Shown here one piece after another: positions 1 through 64,000 of a DNA stretch of 64,000 bases. Position 1 is the first letter of the stretch. Each line of letters opens with the position of its first letter. The position numbers and the translations under genes were made by a program. A model generated the notes under the pieces. It was given only the letters and a program-made list of their open reading frames with translations, searched no databases and was not told the origin of the DNA. This DNA comes from Vallitalea guaymasensis (GTDB lineage: Bacteria; Bacillota; Clostridia; Lachnospirales; Vallitaleaceae). The stretch is from positions 4,278,001 through 4,342,000 of the forward strand of contig NZ_CP058561.1 in NCBI RefSeq assembly GCF_018141425.1, in the 5' to 3' direction.

Positions 1-534
1 GAAAATATGCAATTTGCTTCATTAACAGCAGCATTGCAAACAGGAAAAGTTGATTTTGTTGCAGCTGGTATGACAAATACACCAGAAAGAGCTGAAGAAG
101 TTAATTTCTCAGAAGATTATTTTACTGCTTCACAAGTAATAATCGTTAAAAAAGATAGTGACACAGTTAAATCAAAAGAAGATTTAGTGGGTAAAAAGAT
201 AGGTGTTCAATTAGGAACAACTGGTGAAATTGAATCTAAAGAAATCGAAGGTGCAACTGTTGAATCTTATGACGCAGGTTATTCAGCTGTTATGAGTCTA
301 GTTAATGGTAAATTAGATGCAGTAGTTATTGACCAAAAACCTGCTGAAAAATTTGTTGAGCAAAATGATAAGATCATGATTCTTGATGAAGAATTAACTA
401 AAGAGAATTATGCAATTGCTGTAAATAAAGAAAACGAAGAATTATTGAAAACAATTAATGAAGTAATCAAAGAGATACAGGAAAATGGCGAATATGACGC
501 CTTATATGAAAAATACTTCGGTGAAAAAGAGTAA
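1..534 (+). CDS. Amino-acid ABC transporter substrate-binding protein, 5' truncated
   Basis: The reading frame is open from base 1, so the signal peptide and first lobe lie outside the window. The visible 177 codons are the second half of a family 3 periplasmic-type binding protein. It has the usual FxSLxxALQxGKVD stretch near the start, the AGMTxTxER motif (about residues 23-31 here), then the GKKIGVQLGTTGE hinge segment and a C-terminal YxALYEKYFG end. Such proteins capture polar amino acids outside the membrane and deliver them to a permease. The permease and ATPase follow at 862 and 1577 on the same strand, so this is the binding component of that importer. The substrate cannot be told from sequence. 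A 327-base structured gap separates it from the permease. Confidence 0.9.
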   Translation, partial: ENMQFASLTAALQTGKVDFVAAGMTNTPERAEEVNFSEDYFTASQVIIVKKDSDTVKSKEDLVGKKIGVQLGTTGEIESKEIEGATVESYDAGYSAVMSLVNGKLDAVVIDQKPAEKFVEQNDKIMILDEELTKENYAIAVNKENEELLKTINEVIKEIQENGEYDALYEKYFGEKE

Positions 535-27445: not shown

Positions 27446-27805
27446 GGGGGTGTACTGGTTTCGACGGGGACATCAGAAGTACGAGCAGCCATTCGCAGAT
27501 CACTGGGCCTGCGTCATCAACCTGGTAAATTAAATTAAACGCAGACGAAAATAATAATAATTTCGCATTTGCTGCCTAATTAGGTAGCTGTCTCACCTTA
27601 GTGACCCGTAGCTAGGGCTGAGGCACCAAATTAAACGGGGAACTTCACTTCCAAAGCTTTGAGGGAGAGGAAGACACTATGAAGCTACTAAAGTCTACAG
27701 CCTGTCGTTAGGCGTTAGATGGAGGGAATGTTAAAATAGCGACTGTAATGGGAGATACTCGGATGGATGGGTTTTCGGACAGGGGTTCGACTCCCCTCAC
27801 CTCCA
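27446..27805 (+). ncRNA. ssrA: Transfer-messenger RNA (tmRNA)
   Basis: The 5' GGGGGTGTACTGGTTTCGAC and 3' GGGTTCGACTCCCCTCACCTCC form the tRNA-like domain, with a 7-bp acceptor stem GGGGGTG/CACCTCC and discriminator A at 27805. CCA is not encoded. The resume codon is GCA 27541, and the tag frame GCA-GAC-GAA-AAT4-TTC-GCA-TTT-GCT-GCC-TAA encodes ADENNNNFAFAA. This ends in FAA instead of the usual LAA. Pseudoknot stems follow (27580-27760). Transcription ends at a strong terminator at 27812. Confidence 0.97.
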
Positions 27806-27811
27806 TTAGTC

Positions 27812-31409: not shown

Positions 31410-31733
31410 TTAATGATTAATAGACGTTATTTTAAGTCCAATAATACCTATCAAGATTAATAGTAGGAAAAAAATACGTGTTAAACTACAAGGTTCTTTA
31501 AATAATAATATTCCTATGATTATTGAACCTAGGGCACCTATTCCAGTCCATATAGCATATGCTGTACCCATTGGTAGTACTTTAGTGGCTATGGATAGAA
31601 AATAAAAACTTATTATCATTCCTAATACAGTAATTATTGATGGGTATAATCGGGTAAAGCCGTTAGAATATTTTAAGGCAGTTGCCCAAACTACTTCAAA
31701 TGCACCAGCAATAATTAGATAAAACCAAGACAT
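31410..31733 (-). CDS. gdx: Small multidrug-resistance family guanidinium exporter (Gdx/SugE)
   Basis: This 107-residue protein has four transmembrane helices. It begins MSWFYLIIAGAFEVVWATALKYSNGFTRL, described as residues 1-29, carrying the conserved Glu (E13) that binds the cation, followed by the LPMGTAYAIWTGIGALG helix-3 segment. SugE-type members export guanidinium in exchange for protons. The guanidine-I riboswitch directly upstream on the same strand makes this role very likely. AAAGGAGG precedes the ATG at 31733. Confidence 0.93.
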   Translation of the reverse strand: MSWFYLIIAGAFEVVWATALKYSNGFTRLYPSIITVLGMIISFYFLSIATKVLPMGTAYAIWTGIGALGSIIIGILLFKEPCSLTRIFFLLLILIGIIGLKITSINH

Positions 31734-31757: not shown

Positions 31758-31806
31758 ACAAAAAAATAAAACCCAGAAAGATATTAAAATAATATCCTCC
31801 CGGGTT
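31758..31806 (-). terminator. Riboswitch-controlled terminator before gdx
   Basis: Read on the minus strand, AAACCCGGGAGGATATT pairs with AATATCTTTCTGGGTTT, followed by TATTTTTTT. The left arm overlaps the last conserved part of the aptamer (ACCCGGGAGG). Ligand binding should therefore block terminator formation. Confidence 0.85.
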
Positions 31807-31886
31807 TTTGTCCCTCCGTGTACATAGTTACCTATGCGTTTTCTCTTGGACCAGACCAGTCTATGAACTGCGGAACCCTAGAAAAC
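31796..31886 (-). promoter_or_regulatory. Guanidine-I (ykkC) riboswitch
   Basis: The minus strand carries the ykkC signature in order: CTAGGGTTCCG, ACTGG then TGGTCCAAGAG, a variable hairpin (GCATAG/CTATGT), ACGGAGGGACAAAA and CCCGGGAGG. These are the guanidine-I aptamer core elements. A transcription terminator follows, so guanidine should switch the exporter on. Confidence 0.95.
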
Positions 31887-31899
31887 ATTTATCTGCTAT

Positions 31900-59986: not shown

Positions 59987-60013
59987 TATTTTACAACTAT
60001 ACATCAGTATATA

Positions 60014-60139
60014 TGAACGAGTGTAGGTAGTATAGGGGAATATGAAGCAGTGAGCCATGGACGGCGAACTCAGTCATTTAAACACGGACGTTTAATTGAC
60101 TGACGTAATATTCCCCTATACTACCTACACGACCGTTCA
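60014..60139. repeat. Fold-back element with 23-bp perfect inverted arms and nested hairpin
   Basis: The 23-base arms are at 60021-60043 and 60108-60130 (GTGTAGGTAG...CTACCTACAC), with TGAACG/CGTTCA flanking outside. Inside, TCAGTCATTTAAAC (60070-60083) pairs with GTTTAATTGACTGA (60090-60103), 13 of 14 positions. The element is less AT-rich than its surroundings and encodes nothing convincing. It lies about 100 bases upstream of the GntR gene. Mobile element remnant, structured RNA or nuclease/recombinase substrate are all possible. Confidence 0.8.
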
Positions 60140-60235
60140 CCATTACATTTATTAAATTTAAAATTAGACATCCAACACTATTATATGGTAATATTATTAA
60201 TGGATAATCATAAGTAACAAGATAGGAGGATGAGT

Positions 60236-61078: not shown

Positions 61079-61621
61079 TCAACTTTTAGGAGGTATTCCA
61101 TAATATCCTGTTGTAGAATCTTTAAAGAAATCACACTGCAAAGGTCTAAAGGTAAATAGAGTAATTACCAAAAACAGTAATAGAAAAATATAATAACCTA
61201 TAAGATTTTTGCATTTACTTCTTTTTGGAGATTTTAATATAAAATAACTTACCAATTGACCAACAAAAGCTCCAATAATATATGTTACTACATGAAGTAC
61301 CATTTCACCTTCGCCAAAAATGCACTCATATAAGAATATCAATAAATAAGTAGTTCCAATAAAAACTAGTACTGACATAGCTTTTGCGAACACAAAATTA
61401 TTAACATCATATCTTACGAAAAAATATTCAATGATGCTTACTAAAATAACAGGATAAAACATTATTTTGATATGTTCCCACTGGCTTTCATTAACTGGAC
61501 TGAATATTCCTATAAACGTACATTCTGTCCACTCATATAAGAAGTGAAATAAACTTCCTACTAGTATTATTGCAATTGCCGATACAATTTCAGCTATAAT
61601 AACCTTTTTATGGTCATTCAT
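61079..61621 (-). CDS. Multi-pass membrane protein of the DUF6512 type
   Basis: The 180-residue protein has about five hydrophobic helices. It carries the segment LFHFLYEWTECTFIGIFSPVNESQWEHIKIMFYP (named in parts, about 25-57), which I associate with the uncharacterised DUF6512 family. It ends in a short polar tail (FKDSTTGYYGIPPKS). It lies on the minus strand between the GntR and lysine genes, reading away from the latter. GAAGGTGGTGG is the ribosome binding site before the start at 61621. Function unknown. Confidence 0.65.
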   Translation of the reverse strand: MNDHKKVIIAEIVSAIAIILVGSLFHFLYEWTECTFIGIFSPVNESQWEHIKIMFYPVILVSIIEYFFVRYDVNNFVFAKAMSVLVFIGTTYLLIFLYECIFGEGEMVLHVVTYIIGAFVGQLVSYFILKSPKRSKCKNLIGYYIFLLLFLVITLFTFRPLQCDFFKDSTTGYYGIPPKS

Positions 61622-62010: not shown

Positions 62011-62023
62011 ATATTATATAAAA

Positions 62024-62215
62024 CATGAATAGAGGCGCGAAGGAGAGGGTAATCTTTAATTGTTAAGGAGAAGAACCTCCAATATTAAAGATGAATGGTT
62101 CCTTTGCCGAAAGAGTATGTTGGTTCTTAAATATATTCTTGGTGATAATGACAATACATTATCACTGCCATAAGGGATGATTAGATATCCTAAGTTTTAT
62201 GGAGAGCTATTTATG
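62024..62215 (+). promoter_or_regulatory. Lysine riboswitch (L-box) aptamer
   Basis: The order of conserved blocks fits the lysine aptamer: AGAGGCGCGAAGGAGAGGGTAA, read in two parts from 62031, an arm with CCTCC, GGTTCCTTTGCCGAAAGAG (62098-62115), TTGGTTCTT, the hairpin GTGATAATG...CATTATCAC with CTGCC, then TTTATGGAGAGCTAT (62196-62210). P1 forms from CATGAATAG (62024-62032) and CTATTTATG (62207-62215). It leads the kal-kce-atoD genes. Confidence 0.9.
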
Positions 62216-62293
62216 TATTGAAAATAAGATTTCATTACATAAATAGCTTTTATTTACGAAAAGCATTGAAATCTTATTTTCAGTGCTTTTCTT
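62205..62293 (+). terminator. Expression platform of the lysine riboswitch (predicted ON switch)
   Basis: Hairpin A: AGCTATTTATGTA (62205-62217) with TACATAAATAGCT (62236-62248), followed by TTTATTT. Terminator B: AAAAGCATTGAAA (62259-62271) with TTTCAGTGCTTTT (62278-62290). Antiterminator: 62219-62234 (TGAAAATAAGATTTCA) is an exact complement of 62267-62282. Hairpin A uses the 3' strand of aptamer P1, so lysine binding should prevent A, free the antiterminator and stop B. Confidence 0.75.
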
Positions 62294-62405
62294 GCGTTAT
62301 GTGACTGGATTTAGGGTGGAAAATTGAGAAAAAGGGAGTTGATAGTAAACGTTTTAAGGTTATTACTTAGAAGTAACTTAGGTTTGGGAGAAAGGAGTTA
62401 GGTAG

Positions 62406-62786
62406 ATGAAATCATTAATAAGAGTAAGAATGAGTTGTCATGACGCTCATTATGGGGGAAATCTAGTTGATGGAGCTAAGATTTTACAGCTTTTTGGCGA
62501 TGTAGCAACAGAATTATTGATTAAAAATGATGGGGACGAAGGATTATTCAAAGCATATGACAATATTGAATTTATAGCTCCTGTATATGCTGGTGATTAC
62601 ATAGAATGTGAAGGACAGATTACTGGTTTTGGAAACACTTCAAGGAAAATGGTATTTGAAGCAAGGAAAGTAATAAGACAAAGACCAGATATAAATGATT
62701 CAGCAGCTGAGGTTATGGAAGAGTCTGTTGTAGTATGCAAGGCAAGTGGAACATGTGTAGTTCCTAAGGACAAACAAAGAAAGTAG
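62406..62786 (+). CDS. kal: 3-aminobutyryl-CoA ammonia-lyase
   Basis: The enzyme removes ammonia from L-3-aminobutyryl-CoA to give crotonyl-CoA in lysine fermentation. The 126-residue hotdog-fold protein has the family signature [24 protein letters not shown] (residues about 8-31, named in part), [26 protein letters not shown] and [13 protein letters not shown]. It is the first gene after the lysine riboswitch and is followed 10 bases later by kce, the enzyme making its substrate. GAAAGGAGTTAG precedes ATG 62406. Confidence 0.93.
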
Positions 62787-62796
62787 GGAAGTAGTT

Positions 62797-63615
62797 ATGG
62801 AAAAATTAATAATTACAGCAGCTATTTGCGGAGCAGAAGTTACCAAGGAACATAATCCTACTGTACCTTACACTGTGGATGAAATTGTAAGTGAAGCCGA
62901 GAAAGCTTACAAAGCTGGAGCAAGTATCATTCATCTACATGTAAGAGAAGATGATGGAACTCCTACACAAGATAAAAATAGATTCAAAGAATGCATAGAT
63001 GGTATAAAAGAAAGATGCAAAGATGTAATCATTCAACCATCCACTGGTGGGGCAGTAGGGATGACAAATGAAGAGAGATTACAGCCAATATATCTTGATC
63101 CTGAGATGGCAACACTGGATTGTGGAACTTGTAATTTTGGTGGTGACGATATTTTTGTTAACACTGAAAACACAATAATAGAGTTTGCAGAAAAAATCTA
63201 TGGTCTAGGTATAAAGCCTGAAATAGAGGTTTTTGACAAAGGTATGGTTGATATGGCACTTAGATTATACAAAAAAGGTATTCTAAAAGCGCCACTCCAT
63301 TTTAACTTTGTATTAGGAGTTAACGGAGGAATAGCCGCAACACCTAGAGATTTAATATACTTAGTGGACAGTATTCCAGATGATGCAACTTATACAGTAA
63401 CTGGTATAGGACGAAATGAGTTCAACATGGCTACTATAAGTATTATTATGGGTGGACACGTTAGAGTAGGTTATGAGGATAATATTTACATGAAAAAAGG
63501 TGTGTTAGCAAATTCCAATGGAGAGCTTGTGGAAAAAGTAGTGACGTTAGCGAAAGAACTTGGAAGAGAAATTGCAACTCCTGATGAAGCAAGAAAAATA
63601 TTAGGTATAGGTTAA
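62797..63615 (+). CDS. kce: 3-keto-5-aminohexanoate cleavage enzyme
   Basis: Kce condenses 3-keto-5-aminohexanoate with acetyl-CoA to yield 3-aminobutyryl-CoA and acetoacetate. The 272-residue BKACE-family protein has the Zn site HLHVREDDGTPTQD (HxH around residues 46-48), QPSTGGAVG, the MATLDCGTCNFG segment, KPEIEVFDKGM and GGHVRVGYEDN near the C-terminus. The DCGTCNFG and GGHVRVGYEDN pieces favour Kce among BKACE enzymes. Neighbours kal and atoD agree. The earlier steps (KamA, KamDE, Kdd) are not in the window. Confidence 0.94.
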   Translation: MEKLIITAAICGAEVTKEHNPTVPYTVDEIVSEAEKAYKAGASIIHLHVREDDGTPTQDKNRFKECIDGIKERCKDVIIQPSTGGAVGMTNEERLQPIYLDPEMATLDCGTCNFGGDDIFVNTENTIIEFAEKIYGLGIKPEIEVFDKGMVDMALRLYKKGILKAPLHFNFVLGVNGGIAATPRDLIYLVDSIPDDATYTVTGIGRNEFNMATISIIMGGHVRVGYEDNIYMKKGVLANSNGELVEKVVTLAKELGREIATPDEARKILGIG

Positions 63616-63668: not shown

Positions 63669-64000
63669 GTGAATAAATTAGTTAGTAAAGACGATTTAAA
63701 GCCTTTGTTAAAAGATGGTTCAGTCATTATGGTGGGTGGTTTCCTAGGATGTGGTACCCCAGAAACGATTATTGACTTAATAATTGAAATGGGAATCAAA
63801 GACCTTACAATAATTGGTAACGATACTAGTTATGAAGATAAAGGTATTGGTAGGTTAATAGTCAATAGACAGGTTAAAAAAGTGATAACATCACATATTG
63901 GAACTAACCCTGTTACTGGAGAATTAATGAATAGTGGCGAGCTAGAAGTAGAGTTGTCACCACAAGGAACTCTTATTGAGAGAATAAGAGCAGGTGGATT
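63669..64000 (+). CDS. atoD: Acetoacetate CoA-transferase subunit alpha, 3' truncated
   Basis: From GTG 63669 the frame stays open to the window end (110 codons). It reads [34 protein letters not shown], then [18 protein letters not shown] and [16 protein letters not shown] (all in parts), the CoA-transferase family I alpha subunit. It would move CoA between acetoacetate and butyryl-CoA, linking the Kce product to butyrate formation. AGAGGTG at 63656-63662 is the RBS. The beta subunit (atoA) is expected just outside the window. Confidence 0.92.

Follow-up and report, generated by a model that had tools for sequence, protein, structure and literature searches.

A predicted transcriptional lysine-ON riboswitch of alternating helices ahead of the lysine-fermentation operon of Vallitalea guaymasensis

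INTRODUCTION

The closest described systems are the lysine riboswitches reported upstream of kal-kce in Clostridium sticklandii, of kal in Fusobacterium nucleatum and of pspF3-kal-kce in Thermoanaerobacter, where the kal/kce genes are given as positively regulated (PMC5584792, in the passages available). These systems share with the locus treated here the aptamer family, the genes and the stated direction; the same passages give neither an expression-platform mechanism nor an aptamer subtype, and do not name Vallitalea. The initial annotation of our locus had presented its ON polarity as a surprise; the direction is supported below, and the surprise is smaller than first claimed, because those passages of PMC5584792 already report both the association and positive regulation.

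The canonical lysine-OFF riboswitch (lysC, dapA, transporters) has the five-way junction and transcriptional control in common with our locus, but its platform differs: there the P1 3′ strand and the terminator 5′ arm form the antiterminator, whereas here the hairpin that uses the P1 3′ strand precedes the terminator or is the terminator. The P2 internal loop differs as well, being mostly AGUA/ARAGG in the canonical OFF type and GGUA/GAA[GU] in the kal type. In the pbuE adenine riboswitch, an ON switch, a terminator built on the P1 3′ strand is blocked when the ligand holds P1. The same blocking is proposed for our locus, which differs from pbuE in that another terminator, with an antiterminator to itself, follows in 39 of 51 kal leaders. 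Whole lysine riboswitches have been modelled by covariation with post-aptamer lengths of 25–50 nt (PMC13273304); the two-hairpin platforms below are longer than that, and so would probably lie outside that analysis. The kal-kce association and the positive direction are already published; the literature searched, by titles and abstract openings and with subscription journals mostly uncovered, gave no earlier description of the five-strand platform, of an antiterminator specific to each locus, of the aptamer subclass or of the wider regulon.

The window analysed is a stretch of 64,000 nucleotides of V. guaymasensis (contig NZ_CP058561.1, positions 4,278,001 to 4,342,000, forward strand); coordinates below are window positions.

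RESULTS AND DISCUSSION

A variant lysine aptamer heads a complete fermentation operon

The aptamer and the genes that follow it are these:

62022..62217, + strand: lysine riboswitch aptamer (RF00168; 94 bits, gathering score 30)
62048..62051, + strand: GGUA, a strand of the P2 internal loop (AGUA in most other lysine riboswitches compared)
62094..62098, + strand: AAUGG, facing the P2 internal-loop strand (AAAGG in most controls)
62153..62155, + strand: P4 loop positions that are unlike between the kal and control groups (alignment)
62406..62786, + strand: kal, 3-aminobutyryl-CoA ammonia lyase (NF052388, 196.9 bits, cut-off 160)
62797..63615, + strand: kce, 3-keto-5-aminohexanoate cleavage enzyme (NF052387, 460.8 bits, cut-off 382)
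63669..64000, + strand: 3-oxoacid CoA-transferase subunit A (atoD-like; profile search), continuing past the window end

The lysine aptamer proposed in the initial annotation is borne out by cmscan, which matches RF00168 over the full model length at 62022–62217 (94 bits against a gathering score of 30, E 1.5e–23). All of the five-way junction strands (AGAGG.GC, GCCGAA, UGG, CUG and G..GCU) are found, and these conserved core strands we take to be the lysine site in known structures. In the alignment their columns are 96–100% conserved among 51 kal aptamers, except for the C of CUG at 62165 (78%). The canonical P2 loop-E strand AGUA with its GAAAGG partner is absent, GGUA standing in its place; that mark is common, not obligatory, in RF00168. 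In the lysine riboswitch the kink-turn is described as variable and the sarcin-ricin motif as more conserved (PMC2258182). By its score and its junction the element belongs to RF00168; its P2 and P4 mark it as a variant.

Downstream lie ten genes in one run: kal, kce, two 3-oxoacid CoA-transferase subunits, kdd, kamA, kamB, kamC and two lysine 5,6-aminomutase subunits, the known set for fermenting lysine to butyrate and acetate. Kal, Kce, Kdd, lysine 2,3-aminomutase, KamB, KamC and both lysine 5,6-aminomutase subunits score above their NCBIfam cut-offs, so that what had been claimed as a riboswitch leading kal-kce-atoD leads a complete lysine-fermentation operon, reaching about 8.6 kb beyond 63615, outside the window, to the lysine 5,6-aminomutase beta subunit (locus L004). 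No Kal relatives were found in viral contigs. The 5.6 Mb genome has three RF00168 matches, and the other two leaders, one before what is, by sequence, presumably dapA and one before a transporter of the Na+/H+-antiporter family, are both called OFF by the polarity script described below.

Five strands with two alternative sets of helices

Folding and sequence comparison divide the leader as follows:

62023..62032, + strand: P1 5′ strand (segment 1), 10 pairs with 62207–62216
62204..62217, + strand: P1 3′ strand (segment 2), doubling as the 5′ arm of hairpin A (folding)
62204..62249, + strand: hairpin A, anti-P1, −20.6 kcal/mol, with UUUUAUUU directly after; possibly a terminator alone
62219..62234, + strand: antiterminator strand (segment 3), exact complement of 62267–62282 (sequence, fold)
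62248..62255, + strand: U-rich tract 3′ of hairpin A (sequence)
62258..62291, + strand: terminator B (segments 4 and 5), core stem 62262–62287, tail UUUCUUGC (folding)
62267..62282, + strand: portion of terminator B that pairs in the antiterminator (sequence, fold)

Both structural features on which the initial annotation had built are present: the hairpin that steals the P1 strand (hairpin A) pairs 14 P1-side bases, and the 16-nt exact complement between its loop region (62219–62234) and B (62267–62282) grows to about 20 bp in the fold with G-U pairs. The strands form a chain (1, P1 5′; 2, P1 3′; 3, loop and 3′ arm of A; 4, 5′ arm of B; 5, 3′ arm of B) with two alternative states, 1-2 plus 3-4, or 2-3 plus 4-5. 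The tail of terminator B is U-poor in the window (UUUCUUGC). A generic terminator scan, which demands at least three G-C pairs and loops of 3–8, returned zero sites at the leader, and a generic promoter scan returned 4 promoter-like sites where shuffled sequence averaged 6.7.

The model that we favour, to which we give high confidence, is that lysine switches this lysine-breakdown operon on through a transcriptional riboswitch of alternating helices. When lysine is absent, strand 2 (P1 3′) would pair with the 3′ arm of A (3) to make hairpin A, which would both terminate at its own U tract and mask the antiterminator strand, and polymerase escaping A would then meet terminator B (4-5). With lysine, the aptamer would keep P1 (1-2) and hairpin A would be blocked, strand 3 would pair with the 5′ part of B (3-4) once that is transcribed, and polymerase would clear both terminators into kal-kce-ato-kdd-kam. 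Computation shows the aptamer with its operon, the folds, and a layout conserved among leaders; that lysine is the ligand, that A and B terminate and that control is kinetic we infer. Such a chain would offer a concrete, testable route to opposite polarities in one aptamer family, an extra link flipping the output.

The free leader folds with both A and B at −100.5 kcal/mol. With P1 held, the leader folds at −87.9 kcal/mol with the antiterminator, and forcing B together with P1 gives −85.5, a cost of 2.4 kcal/mol. In the partition function, holding P1 gives the antiterminator a probability of 0.945 and B 0.053, and freeing P1 gives hairpin A 0.998 and B 1.0. In these constrained folds, which are computed only, a held P1 excludes the terminator and frees the antiterminator, as a transcriptional ON switch demands. 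The calculation sustains the by-eye claim that lysine binding favours antitermination, as does the ON layout of 48 of 52 kal leaders below; the accompanying remark that activation follows whichever hairpin is the terminator is likewise upheld.

At full length the OFF fold is 12.6 kcal/mol more stable than the P1 state, so that the decision must be kinetic, lysine acting during RNA synthesis. The penalty of P1 relative to the free fold is nil up to nt 62240, 1.8 kcal/mol at 62244 and 10.9 kcal/mol at 62248, which places the choice of fold about there; lysine would have to act within roughly 25–40 nt after completion of the aptamer.

Assembly of the comparative set

A lysine riboswitch lies directly before kal in Vallitalea (the window's own genome, G003, G004 and G005) and in G035. 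In the class sample a kal-adjacent lysine riboswitch occurs in 2 of the 28 other genomes with a Kal-like match, a few of these matches being distant (G151 and G425). Among the genomes searched, drawn from 80 kal loci, the fraction was 18 of 50, a count that includes L092, recognised through L206, and L124, recognised through L363, stricter filters there losing weak matches. In the family of G425, where 51 genomes have a kal match, 27 of 28 newly fetched kal loci carry the riboswitch; of the 24 additional kal loci examined in the window's order 3 have it, one of these being in the set already. Many kal operons thus have no adjacent lysine riboswitch. An aptamer-core regular expression was tried as a detector and rejected, recovering 17 of 32 known loci.

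The main set comprised 51 kal leaders, one kamA leader and, as controls, 80 riboswitches without a Kal, Kce or KamA match in the fetched loci, these being mostly the best-scoring match per genome. An added set of 43 (33 lower-ranking matches and 10 unused) supplied L363 (kal-kce), L049 (kce with kamA) and 41 further controls. The antiterminator tests, the alignment, the aptamer tree and the folding of 39 leaders used the main set, without the added leaders. Six exact duplicates (three kal, three control) were taken out and near-identical leaders stay; repeats of one locus (L086, L253–L255 and L266) were not entered, and L220 was left out, its locus being incomplete. Three lysine-fermentation leaders among the first 86 controls (L206 and L224, kal-kce; L218, kamA) were reassigned before counting.

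Most kal leaders share the ON layout

Polarity was assigned by a script according to where the P1 3′ strand pairs, ON-I denoting an anti-P1 hairpin followed by a U-rich tract and ON-II an anti-P1 hairpin followed by a separate terminator. The 51 main-set kal leaders divided into 28 ON-I, 20 ON-II, and one each of OFF, no terminator and other; the 80 main-set controls into 48 OFF, 13 other, 8 ON-II-like, 7 with no terminator and 4 ON-I; and the 41 added controls into 17 OFF, 10 other, 6 ON-I, 4 ON-II-like and 4 with no terminator. L049 and the kamA leader were ON-I, and L363 was OFF by script. Taking ON calls with hairpin A at −11.5 kcal/mol or below and within 55 nt, a cut chosen once the kal values were known, we counted 48 of 52 kal leaders vs. 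7 of 121 controls (2 of 80 and 5 of 41), Fisher P ~ 3e–30 with kinship among leaders ignored. The contrast was 48 of 52 vs. 13 of 121 within 62 nt, 48 of 52 vs. 19 of 121 with A at 0 or better (no energy cut), and 38 of 52 vs. 3 of 121 with A at −15 kcal/mol or below and within 55 nt. ON calls were more frequent among the lower-ranking added controls than in the original 80, which lowers the contrast somewhat; the reading is unchanged. L015, the one ON-called control viewed closely, has by eye a hairpin that overlaps the terminator 5′ side and is OFF-like. The script missed four kal leaders, all counted as misses: L190 (OFF), L131 (no terminator), L227 (other) and L363 (OFF).

Repression by lysine, as at lysC and dapA, is the usual action of lysine riboswitches (PMC9495366), and the two OFF calls among the 52 kal leaders (L190 and L363) would agree with an OFF switch; we nonetheless regard that polarity as highly improbable for this operon. 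OFF calls concentrate in the controls (65 of 121), and by eye the two kal calls read as script errors, L190 having been scored on a poor-tailed hairpin and L363 having an anti-P1 hairpin that precedes a separate terminator ending in seven U, with a 10-nt complement linking the two. The pairing that makes the antiterminator of a canonical OFF switch, P1 3′ strand with terminator 5′ arm, does not occur in the window leader (class ON-I), where the helix taking the P1 strand is clear of the B 5′ arm and is itself terminator-like. Moreover, shutting down catabolism while its substrate is abundant makes little sense.

Compactness and stability of the hairpin matter to this assay. In a first run, a loose hairpin scan accepted 18 of the 23 kal leaders, as against 15 of 460 versions in which the downstream sequence had been shuffled. 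It also accepted 18 of the 86 controls as they stood before sorting (shuffled, 75 of 1,720), and discrimination is therefore limited to hairpins that are both compact and stable. The most stable control hairpins of that run were in L224 (kal-kce) and L218 (kamA), followed by L189 (57-nt span; an aspartokinase-like gene by sequence), and L206 (kal-kce) was conspicuous in the preceding scan; the presence of L206, L224 and L218 among those controls explained the strongest matches there.

A predicted locus-specific antiterminator and second terminator

A simpler ON switch, of the pbuE kind, would have hairpin A alone terminate in direct competition with P1, terminator B and its complementarity to A being incidental. 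The U tract after hairpin A in Vallitalea (UUUUAUUU; UUUUUU in L039) suits this arrangement, as do the 12 of 51 kal leaders in which no separate terminator B was found after A. We think it rather unlikely: B is found in the other 39, a good U tract is missing from many Clostridium-type A hairpins, and the complementarity of A to B is locus-specific and partly covarying. Over the 39 leaders the cognate A-B duplex averaged −14.06, vs. −9.02 (sd 0.44) when B was permuted among loci, with 0 of 20,000 permutations as low. The 29 Clostridium-type leaders gave −12.76 cognate vs. −9.46 permuted (again 0 of 20,000) and the six tandem ON-I leaders 395 of 20,000; the four Vallitalea leaders gave no signal (4,926 of 20,000) because they are almost identical. 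In the window leader (L002) the duplex of the A 3′ side with the B 5′ arm was better than in all of 300 shuffles, and in several leaders, L139, L155, L102 and L227, the A-B duplex was no better than in shuffles.

Columns of the antiterminator were compared in 30 distinct leaders, leaving out L233 (failed anchor) and the six tandem leaders and ignoring kinship. Two columns were paired in 100% and 87% of cognates vs. 71% and 49% of cross pairs, and pair swaps such as U-A to A-U are seen; one column was always mismatched and several (t = 5, 9, 10 and 12) were without excess. By stretches, t = −8..0 lay above all 20,000 permutations, t = 5..12 above all but 104, and t = 2..4 showed no signal (2,342 of 20,000), all of these statistics being inflated by the non-independence of related leaders.

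The 39 leaders were also folded under constraint. With P1 held and only the 5′ arm and loop of B made, the antiterminator forms in 35 of the 39; with B complete it persists in 8 and B forms in 30; and with the P1 3′ strand released, all 39 make B and none the antiterminator. The drop from 35 to 8 on completion of B implies that in most leaders the antiterminator is formed co-transcriptionally. In three of the four Vallitalea leaders it also wins at equilibrium, with P1 held and the leader complete. Outside Vallitalea we rejected equilibrium folding alone as proof of antitermination, since at full length B refolds in 24 of the 29 leaders of Clostridium type and in 5 of the 6 tandem ones, and there the model that we favour needs kinetic control.

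In Vallitalea and the tandem ON-I leaders, U-rich tracts end both of the OFF-state hairpins, and the first hairpin, through its 3′ part, is able to pair with the second hairpin's 5′ arm; this pairing is strong in L137, L224, L117 and Vallitalea and weak in L139, L155 and L102. Such leaders may form a double lock, in which a single lysine event would open two terminators in series. By eye, the second terminator of L137 starts with a near copy of the aptamer's P5-3′/P1-3′ end, which looks like a tandem duplication of that end together with the terminator, and the second hairpin of L224 is similar to that of L137.

An aptamer subtype accompanies the ON layout

In a MAFFT alignment of the main set, several positions that are invariant in controls differ in kal leaders, namely in the P2 internal-loop strand, its partner strand, the P4 loop and the start of P5 (62168). 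The column for the A of the P2 strand AGUA is A in 100% of controls and in 0 of 51 kal leaders. In raw sequences GGUA occurs in 46 of 52 kal leaders (45 of 51 in the main set, plus L363), in the single kamA leader and in the kce-kamA leader L049, vs. 0 of 79 parsed main-set controls and 1 of 40 added controls, that one (L052) also having the canonical strand, a chance match. Of the 119 parsed controls, 109 have AGU[AC] (73 and 36; L209 and L354 were unparsed). A tree of the main-set aptamers places 51 of 52 from kal/kamA leaders in one pure bipartition (support 0.914) with L261 outside, and the label changes twice on the tree vs. a mean of 41 in shuffles; without the P2-loop and P4-loop columns there are three changes, 51 of 52 staying together with one control inside. 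These patterns suggest that the ON type is mainly of one origin.

That the kal aptamers form one clade with altered P2 internal loop and P4 loop could also mean that the same ON platform answers to another ligand of the pathway (e.g. beta-lysine or 3,5-diaminohexanoate), or to lysine with shifted affinity. We judge this distinctly unlikely, since the core junction strands agree at 96–100% in the kal and control groups save at the P4/P5 edge (62165, 78%; 62168, 47%), and the subtype also precedes a LysE-type exporter and a transporter, which fit lysine. We conjecture that the altered P2 and P4 affect docking or affinity, and the suspected tie of this architecture to the working lysine concentration is directly measurable. 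With ON polarity tied to a recognisable aptamer subtype, the lysine riboswitches of a genome might be sorted into OFF and ON by sequence.

A broader proposal, on which we are tentative and lean slightly to the doubtful side, is that lysine-ON riboswitches are a separate structural and evolutionary subclass, with P2 internal and P4 loops rebuilt together, polarity inherited so that aptamer sequence predicts ON, docking tuned to high lysine, a regulon of fermentation, uptake and LysE-type export, and a double lock in some leaders.

The subtype outside kal operons

In the family of G425 the GGUA-subtype pattern occurs at 37 places in 36 of 206 genomes. Of these places 34 are just upstream of kal; the remaining three are L297, which precedes a LysE-type exporter, a place at the edge of a contig, and a chance match in coding sequence. 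Across 391 genomes of the class there are 20 pattern places, eight of them apparently real aptamers: the window's own, two kal leaders, L329 and L330 (class-III aminotransferase), L335 (before a short gene and an NhaC/ArcD-like transporter), and L323 and L324 (before kce-kdd without kal). The other 12 were rejected by eye as chance, and Rfam found no lysine aptamer in the three of those 12 that were searched (L318, L320 and L322). Rfam confirms L297, L329, L330, L323 and L335; L324 was absent from the cmscan results at E 0.1.

Layout was scripted for five of the six non-kal variants. L323, L329, L330 and L335 have by script an anti-P1 hairpin with a U-rich tail, and L297 has by eye an anti-P1 hairpin and a separate terminator; at L324 the script picked the wrong P1 and the layout was seen by eye only. 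The exporter and aminotransferase names rest on Pfam or sub-cut-off NCBIfam matches, L329 matching Pfam Aminotran_3 and falling under the cut-off for each of the 25 NCBIfam families shown. The L329/L330 aminotransferase is a candidate enzyme of another lysine-degradation route, and the L297 exporter a possible overflow valve for lysine. With these loci the candidate ON regulon widens beyond kal-kce.

L049 (9211–9384, − strand), from a genome in the window's family, has the GGUA subtype before kce, with kamA farther on, no kal found, and the ON-I layout.

Other elements in the window

Divergent from the riboswitch operon lies a gene for a DUF6512 membrane protein (61079–61621, − strand). A TwoAYGGAY RNA (60008–60145, + strand; 43.5 bits, cut-off 43) is upstream of a GntR/UTRA regulator at 60230; genome-wide the search gave eight such matches, two of them above the cut-off. 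A tmRNA gene is at 27446–27808 (+ strand, 159.2 bits). A guanidine-I riboswitch (31795–31892, − strand; 87.4 bits, cut-off 63) lies directly upstream of a 107-aa membrane protein (31410–31733, − strand) that we take to resemble a small multidrug-resistance-type exporter; a guanidine-I riboswitch before such an exporter is a usual arrangement.
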